From: Chloroflexota bacterium
GTDB taxonomy: Bacteria > Chloroflexota > Dehalococcoidia > GIF9 > UBA5629
Direction of reading: 5' to 3'
Length of the DNA stretch: 64,000 nucleotides
NCBI GenBank assembly: GCA_016875875.1
Contig: VGOP01000002.1
Span: forward strand, 186,001 to 250,000
Of this stretch, positions 617-8,484 are shown piece after piece. The translations under genes were made by a program, and so were the position numbers. Every line of letters begins with the position of its first letter. Positions within the stretch are counted from its first letter, which is position 1. The notes under the pieces were generated by a model that searched no databases, was not told the DNA's origin, and was given only the letters and a program-made list of their open reading frames with translations.

Positions 617-946
617 TCAAACATTGACAGGCTGTTTAAAAAACGTGGCCAGCGAATCAAGCGTCTCGGGGTCGACCCAGCACTCGACGGTCTGTCCACG
701 CCTTTTCATTCTAATCAGGCCTGCTCTGTGGAGTTCTTTTATATGGTGAGAGATTGTTGAAGGCGAAAGACTCAGATTTCTGCCAATCGCCCCTACGCAT
801 TCACGAATGTCAGTATCTGTCTCGCAGGTCTCTCCAGGGGTGCAGCATGAAGCCAGGCGCATGAAAATGCTCAAGCGGTGTGGATTCGACAGCGCCTTGA
901 AGGCGATGGCGAGTCGCTCAGCGTCGGTATTTCGAAAATTCGACAT
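617..946 (-). CDS. arsR: ArsR-family metalloregulator (second copy)
   Basis: This is a 109-residue winged-helix repressor. The DNA-recognition region reads 'LSLSPSTISHHIKEL' (about residues 57-71), followed by the beta wing 'GLIRMKRRGQTVECWV'. Cys residues cluster before the recognition helix ('ASCCTPGETCE', then a further Cys in 'IRECVG') and are the likely As(III)/Sb(III) ligands; the arrangement differs from the CVC motif of the other ArsR at 8060-8419. The length is normal for the family. It has its own consensus promoter (-35 at 978-983, -10 at 954-959) placed so that the transcript should begin at or next to the start codon. It probably represses itself and the downstream membrane protein. 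Confidence 0.93.
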   Translation of the reverse strand: MSNFRNTDAERLAIAFKALSNPHRLSIFMRLASCCTPGETCETDTDIRECVGAIGRNLSLSPSTISHHIKELHRAGLIRMKRRGQTVECWVDPETLDSLATFFKQPVNV

Positions 947-1013: not shown

Positions 1014-2090
1014 TTAGCTCTTATTGTGGTTCGTGGCGAAATATTTTCGCCTAAGGTAGAAAGCCACGTTCACTAGGCTGATGAGTATTGGTACTTCAAG
1101 AAGTGGACCTATGACGGTGGCAAATGCCTCGCCCGAGTCAATGCCAAAAAGGGCAACTGCTACAGCTATGGCCAGCTCGAAATCGTTCGACGCCGCGGTG
1201 AAGGAAACTGCGGTTGCTTTCTGGTAATTAGCCTTTAGTTTGTAGGCAATGAAGAAGGTGAAAAACCACATAAAGAAGAAGTAGATAATAAGCGGCACTG
1301 CTATTCTGGCCACGTCCATGGGCAACTGCACGATGTATTCTCCCTTCAGCGAGAACATGACCACGATGGTGAAAAGCAGCGCTGCTGGCGTTACGAGGCT
1401 CAGCTTAGGCATCAAGGTGTGTTCAAACCATTCTCTGCCCTTCAGTTTTATCATGCCGTACCTGGTGATAATGCCGGCTAGGAAGGGTATTCCCAGGTAA
1501 ATGAACACTGTTTTGGCCGCCTCGGCGATGGATATGCTGGCGTTCACCCCCTCCACAATGCCGAGCTTGCTCAGCAGCACGGATATGAAGATGAATATGT
1601 AAACGGAATAGAAGAGGACCTGGAAGATGGCGTTGAAGGCTACCAGACCAACGGCGTATTCCCTATCACCCTGGGCGAGCTCATTCCAGACTATGACCAT
1701 AGCGATGCAGCGAGCCAGGCCGATAAGGATCACTCCTATCATGTATTCCGGGTAGCCTCTTAGAAAGACAATAGCCAGGACGAACATAAGAATGGGACCA
1801 AAAATCCAGTTCTGGAATAGAGAGAATCCCAGGAATTTGACATCAGAGAATACCTTGTTCATCTCCTCGTATTTCACCTTGGCCAGTGGTGGATACATCA
1901 TGAGAATAAGCCCTATGGCTATAGGAATAGAGGTGGTGCCTACTTGGAAGAAGGTGATGAAGTTAGCCACCCCGGGAACGAAGTAGCCTAGACCTACCCC
2001 TATGCCCATGGCAAGGAATATCCAGAGCGTCAAGAATCTATCTATTATAGAGAGTCTACCAGCTATAGTTTTCGGCCCGGCGTTTTCCAT
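1014..2090 (-). CDS. acr3: Arsenite efflux permease Acr3
   Basis: A 358-residue integral membrane protein of the bile/arsenite/riboflavin transporter superfamily, with about ten hydrophobic segments. The family signature around the essential Cys is present ('[21 protein letters not shown]', of which the core is GLARCIAM), as is the later '[19 protein letters not shown]' region with the conserved Asn-Asp-Phe-Glu. It exports As(III) from the cytosol using the proton-motive force. The gene starts 11 nt after the stop of the corrinoid/Fe-S gene, so it is probably the last gene of the long arsenic transcript; arsR2 downstream has its own promoter. Length is typical of Acr3 proteins. Confidence 0.96.
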
Positions 2091-2101
2091 AGATTATTCT
2101 C

Positions 2102-2935
2102 CTATTCCAGAAGGTTGGCTAAAGCCTTGCGGTTTTCAGTGAACTCAGGCTGGTCTAGGTAAGGACAATCCTCAAGGTGGCATTTCCCTTTTGCTAGGTC
2201 AATGGCGAAGGCAAGGCAGGTCTTTTTGCCGCACTTCTGGCAATCGGTCTGGGGCAGGAGTTTGTGCAGCACCAGCCCCGTGCCCATCTTCGATTTACCC
2301 GGTTCGGTAGCTTGATGTGGCTGATTTAGCTTAGATTCAATTTTATGATATATAGCCGGTTTGGGATATGCCCCCATATCATAGAGCGTGTAGCCCATGA
2401 ATGCTGTGGGAGCCTCCTGATAGCAGCTCCGAACTGCCTCTTCTATCACTTTTGGATTTAATCCGGGGACTTTGGTGTCTCTTTCACCTGGTTGACCCAG
2501 CAGATTGACGATGGTGACTGTTTGCTGGTTAAACCTGTCTATCAGTTTCGTGGGTATGTTGTAAAGAAATGGAGTGAGGGCTTTTGAGCCGATAACGCGT
2601 TTAGTGTCATCGACGCCATTTTGTTTGAGCGCCAGCAGCGCTTCGCCGGGCAAATGGCCGGCTGATTCCCTGCCGCAAAGAACCATGTAGCGGATATTCG
2701 GGTTAGCCACGATATTGCAAATCATCTTCTCTAACCCTATGTTCTCTGTCTGTAGCATGCCGGAAAGAGCCGCCCCTGAGTCTATTCCAGACATTACCAG
2801 TTCATTCAGCTCGGGGGGTATAGCCCAGTCAAAGGTGTCCAGAATGACGCAGACGGCGACGGGAGAATAGTCGTTGCCCCTAAGATAGCGGCCTTCCTCT
2901 GGAGGATAGCCCTCTGGTGGTTTTACCTTGAGCAT
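2102..2935 (-). CDS. MtrA-like corrinoid-binding domain fused to a CFeSP-type 4Fe-4S domain
   Basis: This 277-residue soluble protein has two parts. Residues 1 to about 200 follow subunit A of methanogen tetrahydromethanopterin S-methyltransferase: 'SPVAVCVIL', 'TENIGLEKMICNIVANPNIRYMVLCG', then GHLPGE with His94 at the position of the axial cobalt ligand His84 of methanogen MtrA. The membrane anchor of MtrA is absent. Residues 232-257 hold C-x2-C-x4-C-x16-C, the 4Fe-4S motif of the large subunit of the corrinoid iron-sulfur protein, which reduces inactive Co(II). The protein therefore looks like a self-contained corrinoid methyl carrier with its own reactivation centre. It sits 13 nt after the MauE-TlpA fusion and 11 nt before acr3. 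A role in methyl transfer to or from arsenic is an inference from location. Confidence 0.85.
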   Translation of the reverse strand: MLKVKPPEGYPPEEGRYLRGNDYSPVAVCVILDTFDWAIPPELNELVMSGIDSGAALSGMLQTENIGLEKMICNIVANPNIRYMVLCGRESAGHLPGEALLALKQNGVDDTKRVIGSKALTPFLYNIPTKLIDRFNQQTVTIVNLLGQPGERDTKVPGLNPKVIEEAVRSCYQEAPTAFMGYTLYDMGAYPKPAIYHKIESKLNQPHQATEPGKSKMGTGLVLHKLLPQTDCQKCGKKTCLAFAIDLAKGKCHLEDCPYLDQPEFTENRKALANLLE

Positions 2936-2948
2936 AGCGTACTTATTT

Positions 2949-4670
2949 TCAGGTACCTTTGAGGAAGGTGTTGAAGAGACGTTCCAAATCTTCGGTATTG
3001 CTAAATTCTGGGTCTATAAGCCGAATAATTCCGTCACCATCGATGAGAAAAGTTGTGGGTAAGACGGGCACCTTATAAAGGTCACTCACTACTCCTTCAG
3101 AATCTAAAAGAACGGGAAAAGTCAACCCCGTATCATCAACATACATCTGAATTATCGATTCCTTCACTTTGGGGTGGATAGAGAGTATCGCTATCTTGTC
3201 TGTCGGGATTTTGGCATAAGCCTCTTGAATTATAGACATCTTTTTTCTGCAGGCTGAGCATGACCATAGCCAGAAGTCCAGCATAACTAATTTCCCGCGG
3301 TAATCGCTTAACGTTACAGTTCTACCATCAAGAGAATTGAGGGTGAAATCAGGTGCGGGTTTGCCTGTTTGTCCACTCAGGGCAAGTTCAGGCGAGATTA
3401 CCTGATTGCCACTGACATCTATTGACCTTATCTGGTAATGGTATATGGCATCGACTTCGAGTGAGGTCAGATTGATACTGTGCTGCGTGGTAAGTGTATC
3501 GTTTGATATAGTGTTTCGGTCTTTAGCGCCTGGAATCCAATATTCGACTTTGCTGGTGGCCGGTCTGTTTGTACCCCAGGTTATTGTGGCACTGGAGTCG
3601 ATGAGGGCAGACACTCTAACATAAGAAATTGTAAATTGACTTGGAGCTGGAGCCAGTGTTTTGAACGAGTGCTCTTGCGATAGTGCCTGTTTATCTTCAG
3701 ACAGAATATTAAAGTAGTATGTGGTATCAGGGGAAAGTCCACCGACGAGCATCTGATGAGAATTAACCGGTTTTTTGTTAGTCACAGTAATGACGAAAAT
3801 GTGGTCTTCTGTATATATTTCAATGTTGCTTATTGCTGGCTCATCTGTTGTCCAGGAGATTACCGCACTTGTCTCAGATAGTTCTGAAACAGATATGTCA
3901 GAGGCCACCGGAATCTTTGCTGTGGTATCATTCCCGGGAGCGGCAGTGTGGGTGGATGCTGCGATGGCACCGTATGCAAGCAGGCCAAGAACACATATGC
4001 CGGCAAAAATTGCAATAAGAGGATGCTCTCTAATGCCTTTTCCAATCAGCCTGAAAAATGCCATAACTCTGGCTCCTAGATTTCCTAGTTGCTCACTAAA
4101 TACACGCATTTTTAACCTTACTGTTGCTGCATCAAACTTCTTTCCCTTGCCTAGATTGTCCAGCCATCGTCTGCTGGAAAGGAAACCCGCCGGATGGATG
4201 ATTATTATCAAAATGGCAAGAGCGATAAGTACGAGGTCATAAATAAGGGATTGAACAGGTGTGAGCGACCCGAAATACTTTTCCCAGATGCCAAAGCAAC
4301 TGGCACATGTGGTGTATCCTCCCTGGATAATCGACCAAAGATTTGTTCCTAGAAATGCTAGAAGGAGTGGAATGGTCAGAATAGCCATAAGCCGTGGTAG
4401 GAAACCGACGAGTAGACAAGCTCCTAAAATGAATTCTGCCCAGGGAATGACACGTGGTATAAAAATATCATACATAAAAGAGATAGTGCCCGGGGTTATG
4501 AAGATATCGGGGATGATGTTGCTGATGAAGTCAACAACTTGGGCTGGCGCCTCTTCTGCCGCAATTATTTTGCCTGTCCCCGATGCCAGCAATGTTAGCC
4601 CGATAAGGATACAAGCAATCAAACTTATTTCGCCTCTTACCCGCTCTCGACTTCTCTTAAAAATCGGCAT
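2949..4670 (-). CDS. MauE/DoxX membrane domain - two FN3 domains - TlpA-like thioredoxin fusion
   Basis: A 573-residue redox protein. Residues 15-165 form a four-helix MauE/DoxX-like membrane domain with a C122-A-S-C125-F-G motif. After a linker there is another transmembrane helix (about 217-238). Two fibronectin type III domains follow (about 255-338 and 345-433), each with the W-T/G-T...P...S...Y pattern and a '(Y/H)YF/YQI' strand. Residues 436-573 are a TlpA/AhpC-type thioredoxin beginning 'GKPAPDFTLNSLDG', with active-site C471-S-A-C474 and a 'VLPTTFLID' cis-Pro loop. Topology predicts an extracytoplasmic thioredoxin fed with electrons through the membrane domain, possibly from the ArsG-like CcdA relative encoded 22 nt upstream. 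Exact substrate unknown. Confidence 0.88.
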   Translation of the reverse strand: MPIFKRSRERVRGEISLIACILIGLTLLASGTGKIIAAEEAPAQVVDFISNIIPDIFITPGTISFMYDIFIPRVIPWAEFILGACLLVGFLPRLMAILTIPLLLAFLGTNLWSIIQGGYTTCASCFGIWEKYFGSLTPVQSLIYDLVLIALAILIIIIHPAGFLSSRRWLDNLGKGKKFDAATVRLKMRVFSEQLGNLGARVMAFFRLIGKGIREHPLIAIFAGICVLGLLAYGAIAASTHTAAPGNDTTAKIPVASDISVSELSETSAVISWTTDEPAISNIEIYTEDHIFVITVTNKKPVNSHQMLVGGLSPDTTYYFNILSEDKQALSQEHSFKTLAPAPSQFTISYVRVSALIDSSATITWGTNRPATSKVEYWIPGAKDRNTISNDTLTTQHSINLTSLEVDAIYHYQIRSIDVSGNQVISPELALSGQTGKPAPDFTLNSLDGRTVTLSDYRGKLVMLDFWLWSCSACRKKMSIIQEAYAKIPTDKIAILSIHPKVKESIIQMYVDDTGLTFPVLLDSEGVVSDLYKVPVLPTTFLIDGDGIIRLIDPEFSNTEDLERLFNTFLKGT

Positions 4671-4692: not shown

Positions 4693-5406
4693 TTAATAAT
4701 TTAAAGATTGTATCCATAGTAGTACATAATATATGCCCACACCTATAAAAATCAAGGAAACGATTATGCGAATTATCCGTTCGGCACGGGTAATGGCATT
4801 CAACCAGGTGGCAATTCCGGCTACCCCCAGAGACAAGAGTGTGCCAAATATCAGTACTGGCAAGCCGGTGCCGATGGCATATACCGCAGGCAAAGCCACG
4901 CCACCAGTGGACTCAAGAGCCATAGGTATCAATGCCCCAAAGAATAGCACAGCACTATAGGGGCAAAAAGCTAAGGCAAAGATAATACCCAGCAGGAATC
5001 CGCCTATCATGCCCCAGTCGGCCACTTTTCCTCCTAACGAGGCTAGTTTCCCACCTCCTCGGCCAAAAGAAAACCTGTCGATGGTTAGCATAAGCAAACC
5101 GACTATAATCAGGATTGGACCTAAGATTTGCTCACCGACATCCTGAAGAAATGAAGACACTCCTGGGATTTCGAGGCCAACCACGATGATGAGGACGCCA
5201 AGAACAGAATAAGAGACCATGCGTCCTAAGGTATAGAGGGTGCCGGTTATTACAGCGTACTTGCGGTCTGTCACGTTGCGACTGATGTAGGCTACAGCGG
5301 CGATGTTGGTCGCCATGGGGCAGGGGGCGATGGCGGTTATCAGTCCAAGGAGCAGTGCTGTGAGTACCGGGATATTAGAACTGCCCAAAATGCTGCCTAA
5401 GTCCAT
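4693..5406 (-). CDS. arsG: ArsG-like permease of the CcdA/DsbD membrane family
   Basis: A 237-residue protein with six hydrophobic segments in the CcdA/DsbD transmembrane arrangement. Each half carries a Cys in a proline-flanked motif ('AIAPCPMATN' near residue 28 and 'ALAFCPYSAVLFFG' near 147), typical of the family that moves electrons or substrates across the membrane through a Cys pair. Directly following an arsF-like gene (stop and start overlap by 1 nt), it matches the arrangement of arsEFG loci, where ArsG is reported to export aromatic aminoarsenicals. A plain CcdA electron-transfer role feeding the downstream thioredoxin fusion is the main alternative. Confidence 0.85.
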   Translation of the reverse strand: MDLGSILGSSNIPVLTALLLGLITAIAPCPMATNIAAVAYISRNVTDRKYAVITGTLYTLGRMVSYSVLGVLIIVVGLEIPGVSSFLQDVGEQILGPILIIVGLLMLTIDRFSFGRGGGKLASLGGKVADWGMIGGFLLGIIFALAFCPYSAVLFFGALIPMALESTGGVALPAVYAIGTGLPVLIFGTLLSLGVAGIATWLNAITRAERIIRIIVSLIFIGVGIYYVLLWIQSLNY

Positions 5407-5921
5407 TATTCTACGTCCTTAAGGCTTTGCTCGATGGCGCTCTTGACCTGTTGGTCGAAGCCCGCTTTGTTGGTTCTGCATTTCCAGTACCAGATTTCCT
5501 GTATGTCTCTAATGTGGTCGGTACCATCCTTTACCGTATTTATAAACAATTGTGAGCCAACAGCGCTGTATTTCTTGACGATAGCGGCGTTCTTGCTGTC
5601 CCCGATGTTGTATACTCCAAAAGTCAGCTTGCCGCTTTTCAACTCGTTCTGAAAGTACGTGTTCACAACGTAGATGATGCGCTCTTCGAAGCAGAGGCAG
5701 GTGACACAGCGTTGCGGGCGATGGCAATAGACGACGTCCACCCTTTGATTCTGAAAAGTTGACGGCTCATCAGGCGGCGTAGTCGTTATTTCAGATGGCA
5801 TGGTAGGTTCCTCTGGTGGTGTGGCTGGTGTGGCAGCCTGACTTGAGCAAGCACAAAGCAATCCGACAGCCAGGACAGCGGCTATAGCGAAGCGCAGCTT
5901 GGCTCTAAGTGATATGTTCAT
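5406..5921 (-). CDS. arsF: ArsF-like lipoprotein, putative nitroarsenical reductase subunit
   Basis: A 171-residue protein with an N-terminal lipoprotein signal: positively charged start, hydrophobic stretch and lipobox L-C-A-C with Cys25 as the likely lipidated residue. A Pro/Thr-rich linker (about 28-57) leads to a thioredoxin-like domain with 'YCHRPQRCVTCLCFE' and a final 'YWKC'. These features match the ArsF family, described with ArsE as a reductase of nitrophenyl arsenicals. It is encoded between the small thioredoxin (57 nt upstream) and ArsG (1-nt overlap). The domain is extracytoplasmic, so electrons may come through ArsG or the MauE-TlpA fusion. Function is taken from family resemblance only. 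Confidence 0.82.
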   Translation of the reverse strand: MNISLRAKLRFAIAAVLAVGLLCACSSQAATPATPPEEPTMPSEITTTPPDEPSTFQNQRVDVVYCHRPQRCVTCLCFEERIIYVVNTYFQNELKSGKLTFGVYNIGDSKNAAIVKKYSAVGSQLFINTVKDGTDHIRDIQEIWYWKCRTNKAGFDQQVKSAIEQSLKDVE

Positions 5922-5978: not shown

Positions 5979-6245
5979 TCAAGAGCCCTTTTTCTGCTCT
6001 CCTTTAGCCATGGCATTTATGATTAACTGCGTGACCTCTGCTTTTGAAGGCACCTTACCGCTACTGACCACCTGTTCATTGATCACCAAGCCAGGTGTGG
6101 TCAGGATGTTATAAGCTATGATTTTGCTCATGTCTTTGATCTCTTCCACAGTGGCGTCAATGCCGAGTTCTTTAACTGCCTCCCTGGCGGTCTTTTCCAA
6201 CTCGTAGCACCTGGCGCATCCCGGCCCTAGGACCTTTATGTTCAT
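5979..6245 (-). CDS. Small thioredoxin-family redox protein, ArsE-like
   Basis: An 88-residue cytosolic protein of the small redox-active disulfide protein 2/glutaredoxin-like family. The active site C-A-R-C lies at residues 10-13 ('GPGCARCYELEK'), and the cis-Pro strand is 'TTPGLVINEQVV'. The length and absence of a signal peptide are typical. An AGGAGG-type site precedes the ATG. It lies 36 nt after arsP and before arsF, the place occupied by the small thioredoxin partner ArsE in arsEFG loci. It probably supplies thiol electrons for arsenical reduction; a general thiol oxidoreductase is the fallback. Confidence 0.88.
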   Translation of the reverse strand: MNIKVLGPGCARCYELEKTAREAVKELGIDATVEEIKDMSKIIAYNILTTPGLVINEQVVSSGKVPSKAEVTQLIINAMAKGEQKKGS

Positions 6246-6281: not shown

Positions 6282-7346
6282 TCATAGACTGGTAACAAAA
6301 CCGTATATCAGTCCGGCGGCGGTGCAGCAGACTGTTATGATACCGACGTACCAGAAGAGCCTCTTGGTGCCAATGAACTGTCTGACGACCAGAATGCTGG
6401 GCAGGGAGATCACCGGGTCGGCCAGCAGGTAGGCCAGGAGAACCCCCTTTCCCATGCCCAGGTCTAGGAACATCCGCGCCATTGGTACCTCCACTAGGGT
6501 TGGGAAGTACATGAAGACTCCGAACAGGACCGCCGCTAATGTCGCCCCCACCGTTGAGCTTCCGAAGTAGCGACCGATGAAATCTGCTGGTATGACTACC
6601 CGGAGCATGCCGGCCACAAAAACGCCGACCAGCAGCAGGGGAAGAATTTGGCGGACAAAGAACCATGTCTCCCGCATCCACCTCATCACATCGTCTCGGC
6701 TTAATGTGTGCCTGACTACGAGCACAAGCCCTGTTAGGAGCAGGACAAGCCCAATCAATTTCACCGTAAGCGTTATCAGAGATGAAGCTCCCCAGAGCAG
6801 GATGGCAACCAGAAGGGCGAAGAATACCCAGAGCCAGTTTGAGACTTTGCTCTTCTCGTTCATGGCGAAGGCTTGAGCAGGTGGGTCATCAGCCGCTTTT
6901 TCAGGCTTCTTGTCAGAGAACAGAGCGGCCATGCTGATGCCGATGATGACGGCAAAACTGATGGACAGGATGATGCGGGCAAGGGCAAAATCAATGCCAA
7001 TAAGACTTGCGGTGTAGATGATGGCCAGTATATTGGTAGCCGGGGCGGTATAAAGAAAGGCAATTGCTGGTCCAAGGCCGGCCCCGCTACGCCTTATTCC
7101 CGCAAACAGGGGTAGGATGGTGCAGGAGCAAACAGCCAGGCACAGCCCAGCCACAACCGACATAGGATACGAAATATACTTGGGTGAGTTTGGTCCGAGA
7201 TAACGGAGTATTTTCTCCTTAGGGAAAAGCGCATAGACAGCGCCGGCGATAAAGAAAGCCGGCACCAAGCAGGTCAGGGTGTGGGCAAGGATGTAGTCCT
7301 GGAGGGCAGCCACGCCACCTTTAAGAAGCTCAATAACTAACGACAT
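6282..7346 (-). CDS. arsP: ArsP-type permease (organoarsenical efflux)
   Basis: A 354-residue membrane protein of the DUF318/ArsP_1 permease family, with about eight hydrophobic segments in two groups separated by a charged loop (about 148-168). The first half carries the family's Cys-rich motif 'CLAVCSCTILPLFAGI' and 'AFLYTAPATNILAI'; the second half carries 'FPTLVEVPMARMFLDLGM' and 'LLADPVISLPSI'. Characterised ArsP proteins export trivalent methylarsenite and trivalent aromatic arsenicals. Its place between an ArsR/SCP2 pair and arsE/F/G-like genes fits organoarsenical detoxification. The start 18 nt after the previous stop indicates co-transcription. Confidence 0.9.
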   Translation of the reverse strand: MSLVIELLKGGVAALQDYILAHTLTCLVPAFFIAGAVYALFPKEKILRYLGPNSPKYISYPMSVVAGLCLAVCSCTILPLFAGIRRSGAGLGPAIAFLYTAPATNILAIIYTASLIGIDFALARIILSISFAVIIGISMAALFSDKKPEKAADDPPAQAFAMNEKSKVSNWLWVFFALLVAILLWGASSLITLTVKLIGLVLLLTGLVLVVRHTLSRDDVMRWMRETWFFVRQILPLLLVGVFVAGMLRVVIPADFIGRYFGSSTVGATLAAVLFGVFMYFPTLVEVPMARMFLDLGMGKGVLLAYLLADPVISLPSILVVRQFIGTKRLFWYVGIITVCCTAAGLIYGFVTSL

Positions 7347-7363: not shown

Positions 7364-7987
7364 CTAGTTGACCGGAACTTCAGCGAATACTTCAGTTACC
7401 AGCGTTACCACTGGTTTCATGCGTAGAATCATATATGATAGAGCGACTTCGCGCCTCAAGGCGACTTTAAGCTTCAATTTGCCGGTTATTCTCAATCTGA
7501 TGACATCCTGTTTGCCTGAAGCCATCAGCTTCCAGGTGCTGTAATTCCCGGAAAGCTTAAAAATTGCGTCTTCGTGTTCACCAGGAGCCACAGGCATCAG
7601 GTCTCTGAGAGCGCCATCCCGGAAATCTGCCCAGATGTGCATTCGTATATCTCTTATCTCGTCTGCAGATAACTTTGAGGCTTTATTCAACACTTTATCT
7701 ATATTCAACTCTCTAACAGAGGCGTCTAGCGGAATCCCCAGGCTTTCAAGAATCTTGCCTGTAGGTGCATCCTTATACTTTTTTCGTGCCTCCGGAGGCA
7801 TTATATCCATCAAGCTCATGAAACCTTCCACGATTTCTTTTTTGTTTAACTCTCTTAGGAGTTCCTCGTCGCCCTCGACTGTACACAGAAAATCACCGTG
7901 CCAATCCTTTGCCGCCTCTTTATTCTTATTTTGCTTTGCGGCCTCTAAAACCGCCTTAACCCATTCCTTTGACGGAAACACCACCAT
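7364..7987 (-). CDS. SCP2-like (sterol carrier fold) protein
   Basis: A 207-residue soluble protein opening with 'FPSKEWVKAVLEAA', then a charged acidic region and a C-terminal half resembling SCP2 lipid-binding domains ('AIFKLSGNYSTWKLMASGKQD' and 'ITGKLKLKVAL'). No catalytic motif is seen. The ATG at 7987 has an AAGGAG site upstream. It is the first gene after arsR1, with a palindrome resembling the arsR1 operator in its leader (8024-8037), so it may be arsenic-regulated. SCP2-like proteins bind hydrophobic ligands; binding of an arsenolipid or aromatic arsenical is possible but speculative. Confidence 0.75.
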   Translation of the reverse strand: MVVFPSKEWVKAVLEAAKQNKNKEAAKDWHGDFLCTVEGDEELLRELNKKEIVEGFMSLMDIMPPEARKKYKDAPTGKILESLGIPLDASVRELNIDKVLNKASKLSADEIRDIRMHIWADFRDGALRDLMPVAPGEHEDAIFKLSGNYSTWKLMASGKQDVIRLRITGKLKLKVALRREVALSYMILRMKPVVTLVTEVFAEVPVN

Positions 7988-8059: not shown

Positions 8060-8419
8060 TTAGTTGGGTGTTCCAACTACACAACCAGGGCCTATTCTTT
8101 GGGCGTTCCTCAGCCTTTTTCTATCCTGCAGGGCTGTTTCATTTCCCTCAAGCGCTTTGTTGACAGCCTCGATCAGGTCCGCATAGTGCTCTTTTAGGCC
8201 TTCTTTATCTATGGAATACAGTGCCCATAGCCCGAGGCGCCTGAGCTTCAAGAATCCGGCATCGTAGAGGGCACTCAGGTTTCGAGAGGCACGGGACTCG
8301 GAGATATTGAGCGCCTGCATCACCTCGCAGACGCAGCACTCCCGCTCCAATAACAGGTTGAGAATCCTCAGTCTGGTCTCGTCGGAAAGGGCCTTAAAAG
8401 CCTTTACTAACTCTCGCAT
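8060..8419 (-). CDS. arsR: ArsR-family arsenic-responsive repressor (first copy)
   Basis: A 119-residue winged-helix regulator. The classical As(III) site is present as 'ECCVCEVMQAL' (about residues 27-37) at the start of the recognition region, then 'ISESRASRNLSALYDAGFLKLRR'. The frame is open for 12 more codons upstream to 8455, but that upstream ATG lies inside the operator and at the transcription start. The start at 8419 (MRELVKAFKALSDETRLRIL) is therefore chosen; it matches the family's usual N-terminus. The C-terminal tail (about 88-119) is longer than usual and charged. It heads the arsenic island and probably autoregulates through the palindrome at 8438-8457. Confidence 0.93.
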   Translation of the reverse strand: MRELVKAFKALSDETRLRILNLLLERECCVCEVMQALNISESRASRNLSALYDAGFLKLRRLGLWALYSIDKEGLKEHYADLIEAVNKALEGNETALQDRKRLRNAQRIGPGCVVGTPN

Positions 8420-8437
8420 TTCTGAACCTCTGTCCCT

Positions 8438-8484
8438 ATATGCGCATTTATGCATATAGTACTACAGGAGAGTTATCTTGTCAA
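8438..8484 (-). promoter_or_regulatory. arsR1 promoter with overlapping ArsR operator
   Basis: On the minus strand TTGACA (8479-8484) and TACTAT (8456-8461) are 17 nt apart. An inverted repeat ATATGC-N8-GCATAT (8438-8457) covers the end of the -10 box and the expected transcription start near 8450. This is the placement expected for a steric ArsR/SmtB operator. Confidence 0.75.

Follow-up and report, generated by a model that had tools for sequence, protein, structure and literature searches.

MauE works as a pair with MauD, both of which are required for maturation of the disulfide-rich small subunit of methylamine dehydrogenase. Two cysteines in the loop that follows helix 3 are a hallmark of the MauE family. 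The role of MauE is poorly understood; a fixed partner within the same chain would make its redox direction testable with one purified protein. A second described system, ArsEFG, was reportedly connected with roxarsone and nitarsone by Chen, Zhang and Rosen in 2019. Its family names speak of nitroreduction and export, yet ArsG is built like a thiol carrier. A third parallel is one of gene setting: in PMC7438021, the hgcAB corrinoid methylation genes adjoin acr3, arsM and arsR-like genes.

Here we describe a fusion through which ArsEFG is tied to MauE and to dithiol proteins on stalks. It is encoded within a 64,000-nucleotide stretch of DNA (hereafter the window), whose host is an uncultured sediment-type bacterium of the Dehalococcoidia.

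The fusion and its arsenic island

The fusion gene lies in an island on the minus strand, in which the gene order, read from right to left, is ArsR, SCP2, ArsP, ArsE, ArsF, ArsG, fusion, MtrA-FeS, ACR3 and ArsR, as follows:

8060..8455 (-), ArsR-type regulator (NF033788, 79.5 bits)
7364..7987 (-), SCP2-domain protein (PF02036, 25.1 bits, cut-off 21.3)
6282..7346 (-), ArsP-family permease (ArsP_1; PF03773, 241.8 bits)
5979..6245 (-), ArsE, small thioredoxin-like protein (TIGR00412, 103 bits, cut-off 62)
5406..5921 (-), ArsF-family lipoprotein (NF040494, 85 bits, cut-off 60)
4693..5406 (-), ArsG, CcdA/DsbD_2-type membrane protein (NF040495, 272 bits, cut-off 200)
2949..4670 (-), MauE-TM-FN3-FN3-TlpA fusion, a single ORF with Pfam domains, kept in relatives
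4200..4628 (-), MauE (DoxX-like) four-helix membrane domain, residues 15-157 (PF07291)
4296..4307 (-), MauE CxxC, C122-C125, in a predicted extracytoplasmic loop
3954..4022 (-), fifth membrane helix, residues about 217-239 (hydropathy peak; helix in the model)
3657..3902 (-), first FN3-like domain, residues about 257-338 (PF00041 / PF16656)
3381..3638 (-), second FN3-like domain, residues about 345-430 (second PF16656 stretch; model strands 348-418)
2994..3371 (-), TlpA/ResA-type thioredoxin domain, residues 434-559 (PF00578; PDB profile matches including ResA)
3249..3260 (-), thioredoxin CxxC (WSCSAC), C471-C474, in 12/12 copies reaching it
2102..2935 (-), MtrA-type corrinoid-binding plus CFeSP-like 4Fe-4S domain (MtrA-FeS; PF04208, 128 bits; PF04060, 45 bits)
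1014..2090 (-), ACR3 arsenite efflux permease (TIGR00832, 450.8 bits, cut-off 283)
617..946 (-), second ArsR-type regulator (NF033788, 56.9 bits)

The fusion ORF encodes 573 aa from an ATG start, with zero internal stops. Its MauE domain scored 41.8 bits against PF07291 (curated cut-off 27) and its first FN3 domain 41.8 bits against PF00041 (fn3; cut-off 25; residues 257-333), while the FN3-like model PF16656 (Pur_ac_phosph_N) matched in two stretches, the first at 258-338, with 56.4 bits (cut-off 30). The thioredoxin domain matched AhpC-TSA (PF00578; 86.9 bits, cut-off 26, residues 436-551) and Redoxin (57.0 bits, cut-off 26.6), as well as PDB profiles, ResA among them (best E 3.8e-28). The preliminary description, which had placed a membrane redox domain, FN3 spacers and an extracytoplasmic thioredoxin in one chain, is thus borne out in its domains by Pfam, all over their cut-offs, and so is the adjacency it reported to ArsG/CcdA-like and ArsF-like proteins, which ArsE joins (NF040495, NF040494 and TIGR00412, over cut-offs). 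A selenocysteine in the fusion was ruled out, as the thioredoxin motif reads CSAC with no in-frame stop.

The fusion is a real, inherited joining of known domains, at the level of the family. In a set of 100 genomes (30 from the host's own Dehalococcoidia family, f1, itself included, and 70 from the order and class), the architecture occurred in at least 13 of the 30 family genomes among the matches listed, whereas no match spanning both ends of the fusion appeared among those listed for the 70 genomes outside the family. Across 400 genomes of the phylum, with three candidates scored per genome, the window's own genome was the only one with the fusion among the matches listed.

Both cysteine pairs are kept. 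That of MauE (C-x(1,2)-C) is present in 36/36 aligned MauE sequences and in 13/13 fusions, with C-x-C spacing in many standalone MauE copies, and that of TlpA in all 12 copies that extend to the site; K34, P76 and E79 of the MauE domain are likewise found in 36/36 sequences. The loop at residues 165-217 is basic (12 K+R). From hydropathy, charge and model helices we predict that this loop is cytoplasmic and that a fifth helix then leads to a C-terminus outside the cell. Because of this positive-inside topology, the MauE pair, whose loop connects helices 3 and 4, and the TlpA pair are both predicted to face outward.

An AlphaFold model of MauE (residues 1-172, from the 36-sequence alignment) reached a pLDDT of 91.9 and a pTM of 0.84, whereas in the full-length model (mean pLDDT 65 and pTM 0.34 for the whole) the TlpA part was poor. 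The top structural match of the MauE model, at a Z of 11.8 and with 124 residues superposed to 2.7 A, was NACHO/TMEM35A (9h9e_B), the following row having a Z of 7.4; these values are to be read against the Z of 13 that helical bundles can reach through arrangement alone. NACHO is presumably DoxX-like, and two relatives gave DoxX (PF07681) hits, of 28.1 and 20.4 bits (cut-off 23.6). VKOR rows scored Z 5.1-5.7, level with unrelated helical bundles, so that a VKOR/DsbB kinship of MauE was indistinguishable from background.

The neighbours of the fusion include further thiol proteins. Two conserved cysteines are expected of a CcdA-type thiol carrier, and in ArsG C29 and C148 are present in 13/13 aligned copies. 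ArsF carries an invariant C72 (22/22), and its RCxxC motif suggested a thioredoxin fold; comparison with thioredoxins by hhalign gave a probability of 43% (E 2.5e-4), a PDB profile search returned weak unrelated matches only (best E 0.026), and the annotation of the protein is that of a 'nitroreductase subunit' family only. Profile scans of the neighbours brought up no extracytoplasmic arsenical reductase, the end point that the preliminary description had suggested for an electron wire. The island extends to the left of the window (L107) with a 217-aa protein, a DsbD_2/CcdA-type protein, a CARDB protein and ArsM (NF008823, 366 bits, cut-off 263). Left of the window's ArsR, at L107:11228-12585, this second CcdA/DsbD_2-type protein and the 217-aa protein, which ends in GCCSGK, broaden the thiol theme of the island.

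Gene settings and stalked dithiol proteins

ORFs of the relatives were called by a longest-ORF script rather than a gene finder, and families were assigned by blastp against the proteins of the window and its relatives. Seven of the 13 fusions lie in an ars neighbourhood (the window, G009, G015, G001, G002, G011 and G027; the six loci besides the window being L029-L033 and L039), and five lie elsewhere (L034-L038). Among the latter, the fusions of G026, G018, G025 and G028 adjoin a protein of 307 aa (in G026 it was identified as CARDB), whereas ARMT1-like and GTPase genes adjoin that of G004; the contig of the remaining one (G012) is too short to judge its setting. In G004, moreover, an ars cluster (L088) carries a separate TlpA lipoprotein without MauE, and the fusion is found elsewhere in the genome (L035). 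Because five of the 13 occupy non-ars places, arsenic is not the sole setting, and the fusion is usable outside arsenic. It is therefore not a dedicated arsenical device; some of its members probably have an arsenic role, though not an exclusive one.

Viewed from ArsG, the association is also partial. Proteins over the ArsG cut-off occurred in 23 places in 22 of 294 class genomes, and MauE was found within nine ORFs in four of these 23 (the window, G045, G520 and G255) but not in the other 19. By our own estimate, chance would account for about 2%, if a genome has fewer than two thousand genes and about two of them encode MauE. A larger set of 33 ArsG loci was partly picked for MauE or MtrA, and 4/23 is the unbiased figure.

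MauE also occurs by itself near arsenic genes. At L103, L104 and L105, which belong to a different family within the order, MauE is a separate gene directly after ArsG, itself followed in L104 and L105 by an Ig/PKD lipoprotein with a CxxC near its last residue; the copy in L103 is cut. MauE lies three ORFs from ArsG in G520 and G255, members of the class, and between the ArsA and ArsD genes in G028 (L118). A 304-aa MauE protein of G427, from yet another family, is encoded between the MtrA-FeS and ACR3 genes; a thioredoxin-like C-terminal domain in this protein (L199) was an impression by eye that was not confirmed. The window's family has a second MauE, a standalone one, whose partner is an Ig lipoprotein that ends in CC. 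This pair of standalone MauE and Ig-dithiol lipoprotein is kept beside HcyBio (homocysteine-biosynthesis), NIL-ferredoxin and helicase genes at L043 and L108-L122. Bare CC/CxxC-tailed Ig/PKD lipoproteins beside MauE or ArsG can be seen at L043:8147-8854, L104:1745-2710, L105:5785-6747 and other places.

We counted such tails in Ig-stalk proteins, excluding ORFs shorter than 120 aa, open 3' ends and duplicates, and leaving ArsF out as a neighbour label, as some ArsF queries have Ig domains themselves. Within four ORFs of MauE, 23/24 carried CC or CxxC in their last 16 residues, the remaining one having a C-terminal thioredoxin domain; these counts are not independent, because the proteins are related and the 24 are largely one family. 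Near ars genes without MauE (n = 23), 15 ended in CC/CxxC, one in CxC, four in an ArsF-type domain and three in none of these, and the background was 68/816 among ORFs of at least 150 aa. The tail is not confined to the surroundings of MauE, however, since CC/CxxC was found in 13/25 Ig proteins (CxC in one) that had no MauE or ars genes nearby, many of them viewed with no more than 1.5 kb of flanking sequence.

Terminal thiol modules thus recur in this lineage on FN3, PKD/Ig and CARDB stalks. FN3 spacers had been considered unusual, but here they are not exceptional, because these other thiol stalks recur and because FN3-FN3-TlpA paralogues without MauE are many, among the matches listed. As MauE and a stalked thiol module recur as two genes, the fusion represents their one-gene, covalent form.

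Proposed thiol exchange at the outer face and its alternatives

We propose that the fusion is a membrane-anchored, outward-facing thiol-disulfide oxidoreductase that forms a relay beside ArsE-ArsG-ArsF and serves the arsenic system, a reading to which we give an even chance. It is built from the observed domains, their fusion, conservation and gene neighbourhood, together with the predicted topology and MauE fold. The MauE cysteine pair would exchange disulfides at the outer face with the chain's own TlpA domain, held off the membrane by a stalk of the fifth helix and two FN3 domains, the latter setting its reach. In parallel, a thiol relay from cytosol to outside might run from ArsE (cytosol) through ArsG (membrane) to ArsF (lipoprotein). 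The fusion would keep the extracytoplasmic thiols of the arsenic system in a working redox state or, as an alternative output, might pass electrons to arsenicals via ArsF-type proteins. A partnership with ArsF/ArsG, and an arsenical as end acceptor, are both conjectural. Electron direction is not readable from sequence, and we lean slightly towards the reductive over the oxidative one. The proposal is favoured by the invariant cysteine pairs and their predicted outward position, the ars settings of 7/13 fusions, the occurrence of MauE by ArsG and the 23/24 Ig tails; the five non-ars fusions, the ars cluster of G004, the 19/23 ArsG places without MauE, the poor TlpA model, the relatedness of the 24 Ig proteins and the presence of such tails far from MauE and ars genes count against it.

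A rather unlikely alternative is that the chain runs in the opposite sense, with MauE moving electrons from TlpA to the quinone pool in the manner of VKOR/DsbB, so that disulfides are formed, or thiol-bound trivalent arsenicals are oxidised, outside the cell. The need for MauE/MauD in maturing a disulfide-rich subunit agrees with this, as do the invariance of Lys34 and Glu79 in the MauE domain and the presence of VKOR entries among the structural matches of its model, although those entries score no higher than unrelated helical bundles. Having corrinoid and Fe-S proteins next door also hints at an anaerobic host, in which a reductive role would fit better.

Equally improbable in our estimate is general envelope thiol housekeeping, in which the fusion would serve extracytoplasmic proteins at large. 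Its recruitment into the ars island would then reflect only that thiols are a target of arsenic. Consistent with housekeeping, five of the 13 fusions stand beside CARDB, glutamine cyclotransferase or unrelated genes, the MauE-only copy with its Ig-dithiol partner accompanies homocysteine-biosynthesis genes in many family members, and FN3-TlpA paralogues are plentiful among the matches listed. However, six fusion loci other than the window's have ars neighbours, and a standalone MauE stands beside ArsG in another family.

The corrinoid neighbour allows a broader reading than the thiol-disulfide relay. MtrA-FeS (2935-2102) matched the MtrA chain 5laa (phmmer E 7.5e-33), and its Fe-S domain is as in the corrinoid iron-sulfur proteins 4djd and 2h9a. 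H94, E64 and the four Fe-S cysteines are present in 12/12 copies; the first two fall on a His and a Glu when aligned to 5laa, and these were taken as His84/Glu54. According to PMC4915002, His84 of MtrA is the cobalt ligand, with Glu54 as partner; the published meander motif, GAIPF-Y/F-XEN, is not conserved in MtrA-FeS copies. ACR3 or ArsG lies within four ORFs of MtrA-FeS at 15/17 loci outside the window; of the two exceptions, one sits at a contig edge and the other is a distant protein of 506 aa. The 400 phylum genomes gave seven matches, of which the five full-length ones were all by ACR3 and the two partial ones were not. B12-dependent arsenic methylation or demethylation by MtrA-FeS is possible on this evidence, and ars operons of sediment bacteria may accordingly encode an anaerobic route of arsenic methyl transfer. 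In a literature search, which left most subscription journals outside, a pairing of MtrA with arsenic was not found, nor did it turn up in searches on MauE, on ArsE/F/G, on FN3-thioredoxin in Dehalococcoidia or on Dehalococcoidia with arsenic and PKD domains.

Taken together with the thiol modules, these genes might make up an undescribed arsenic system of the Dehalococcoidia, combining a MauE-fed stalked thiol network, MtrA-FeS corrinoid chemistry and ArsP/ACR3 export, which we hold to be more doubtful than either of the preceding alternatives. Here MauE would feed TlpA, thioredoxin, ArsF or bare CC/CxxC tails on FN3, PKD or CARDB stalks; the cytosolic B12 protein (MtrA + 4Fe-4S) would methylate or demethylate arsenic, and ArsP and ACR3 would export the products.

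Other proteins in these clusters deserve mention. At L093:1024-3883, two acyl-CoA-dehydratase-activase ATPases and an HGD-D component precede MtrA-FeS and ACR3, and are candidate reductive activators of the corrinoid. Ars-cluster proteins of ~180 aa (L090_13, L091_6 and L092_14) carry the same kind of Fe-S domain with another N-terminal half; PF04060 was found in L090_13. In the ars cluster of G427, a frame at L199 (about 4440-4080, minus strand), between the genes for ArsE and a thioredoxin-like lipoprotein, contains Y-C-A-E-TGA-G-F, which we take to be a motif as in SelW/Rdx selenoproteins.

Origin of the fusion and comparison with known systems

That two genes were fused by an assembly or annotation artefact is virtually excluded, because independent, diverged copies (10 full length, own genome included, and three contig-cut, in G001, G002 and G027) share the architecture in the 30 family genomes, nothing speaking for an artefact save the near-identical copies of G009 and G015, maybe one mis-binned source. 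The copies in the family have 33-67% identity to the window protein, and along the gene GC (0.42-0.47) and GC3 (0.36-0.45) are even, with no sharp break; the possibility of an assembly join, raised in the preliminary description, was checked on these grounds and refuted. The ars islands of G009 (L029, G009:C50) and G015 (L030, G015:C15) are near-identical. The two genomes belong to separate genera and show 6 and 9% contamination, so either mis-binning or a recent transfer would account for the likeness.

A tree of the FN3-FN3-TlpA part was built from rows with more than 80% cover of the thioredoxin-side part (26/41 hits), leaving 24 rows, the window included, once duplicates were dropped. One branch (support 100/98) separated 12 fusion and two MauE-less rows from 10 FN3-TlpA paralogues without MauE, and the MauE label needed two changes on this tree. 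The simplest reading would be one gain and one loss of MauE; alternatively, MauE may have been gained twice. In the paralogues scanned (L041, and L042 twice), zinc-ribbon hits stand where MauE would be, over cut-off in two of the three. A plasmid source was rejected: of the 77 plasmid records matching the fusion, none spans 80% of the query at a single site, and the 20 of these 77 rows that were listed all fall in the thioredoxin end. Viral carriers were looked for and none was confirmed.

Among known systems, the fusion is akin to the MauE + MauD methylamine pair in combining a MauE membrane domain with a thioredoxin-fold thiol oxidoreductase. It differs in that all parts are joined in a single chain, to which a further helix and two FN3 domains are added, among neighbours that, where examined, are ars rather than mau genes, and its TlpA domain scored 22.7 bits against the MauD equivalog TIGR02661, below the cut-off of 188.6. 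With the TlpA/ResA family (PF00578; ResA 4nmu, 1st9) it shares a membrane-tethered thioredoxin domain with CxxC; the tether of ResA, however, is one helix, whereas that of the fusion is a MauE domain and an FN3 stalk, and the score against the ResA subfamily NF002854 was 98.6 bits, below the cut-off of 170. The BT_3928 family (NF045576) shares the MauE-like N-terminal part and matches 36/36 MauE sequences, but at 27.7 bits against a cut-off of 250 the fusion is not a member.

As at the hgcAB loci cited above, a corrinoid protein with an Fe-S partner is encoded here beside acr3, arsM and arsR-like genes; unlike hgcAB, the corrinoid domain is MtrA-type and fused to the Fe-S domain. With the ArsEFG system the locus has in common adjacent members of the ArsE, ArsF and ArsG families, all over cut-off, to which it adds the fusion, which belongs to none of these families, the MtrA-FeS protein and the SCP2 protein.
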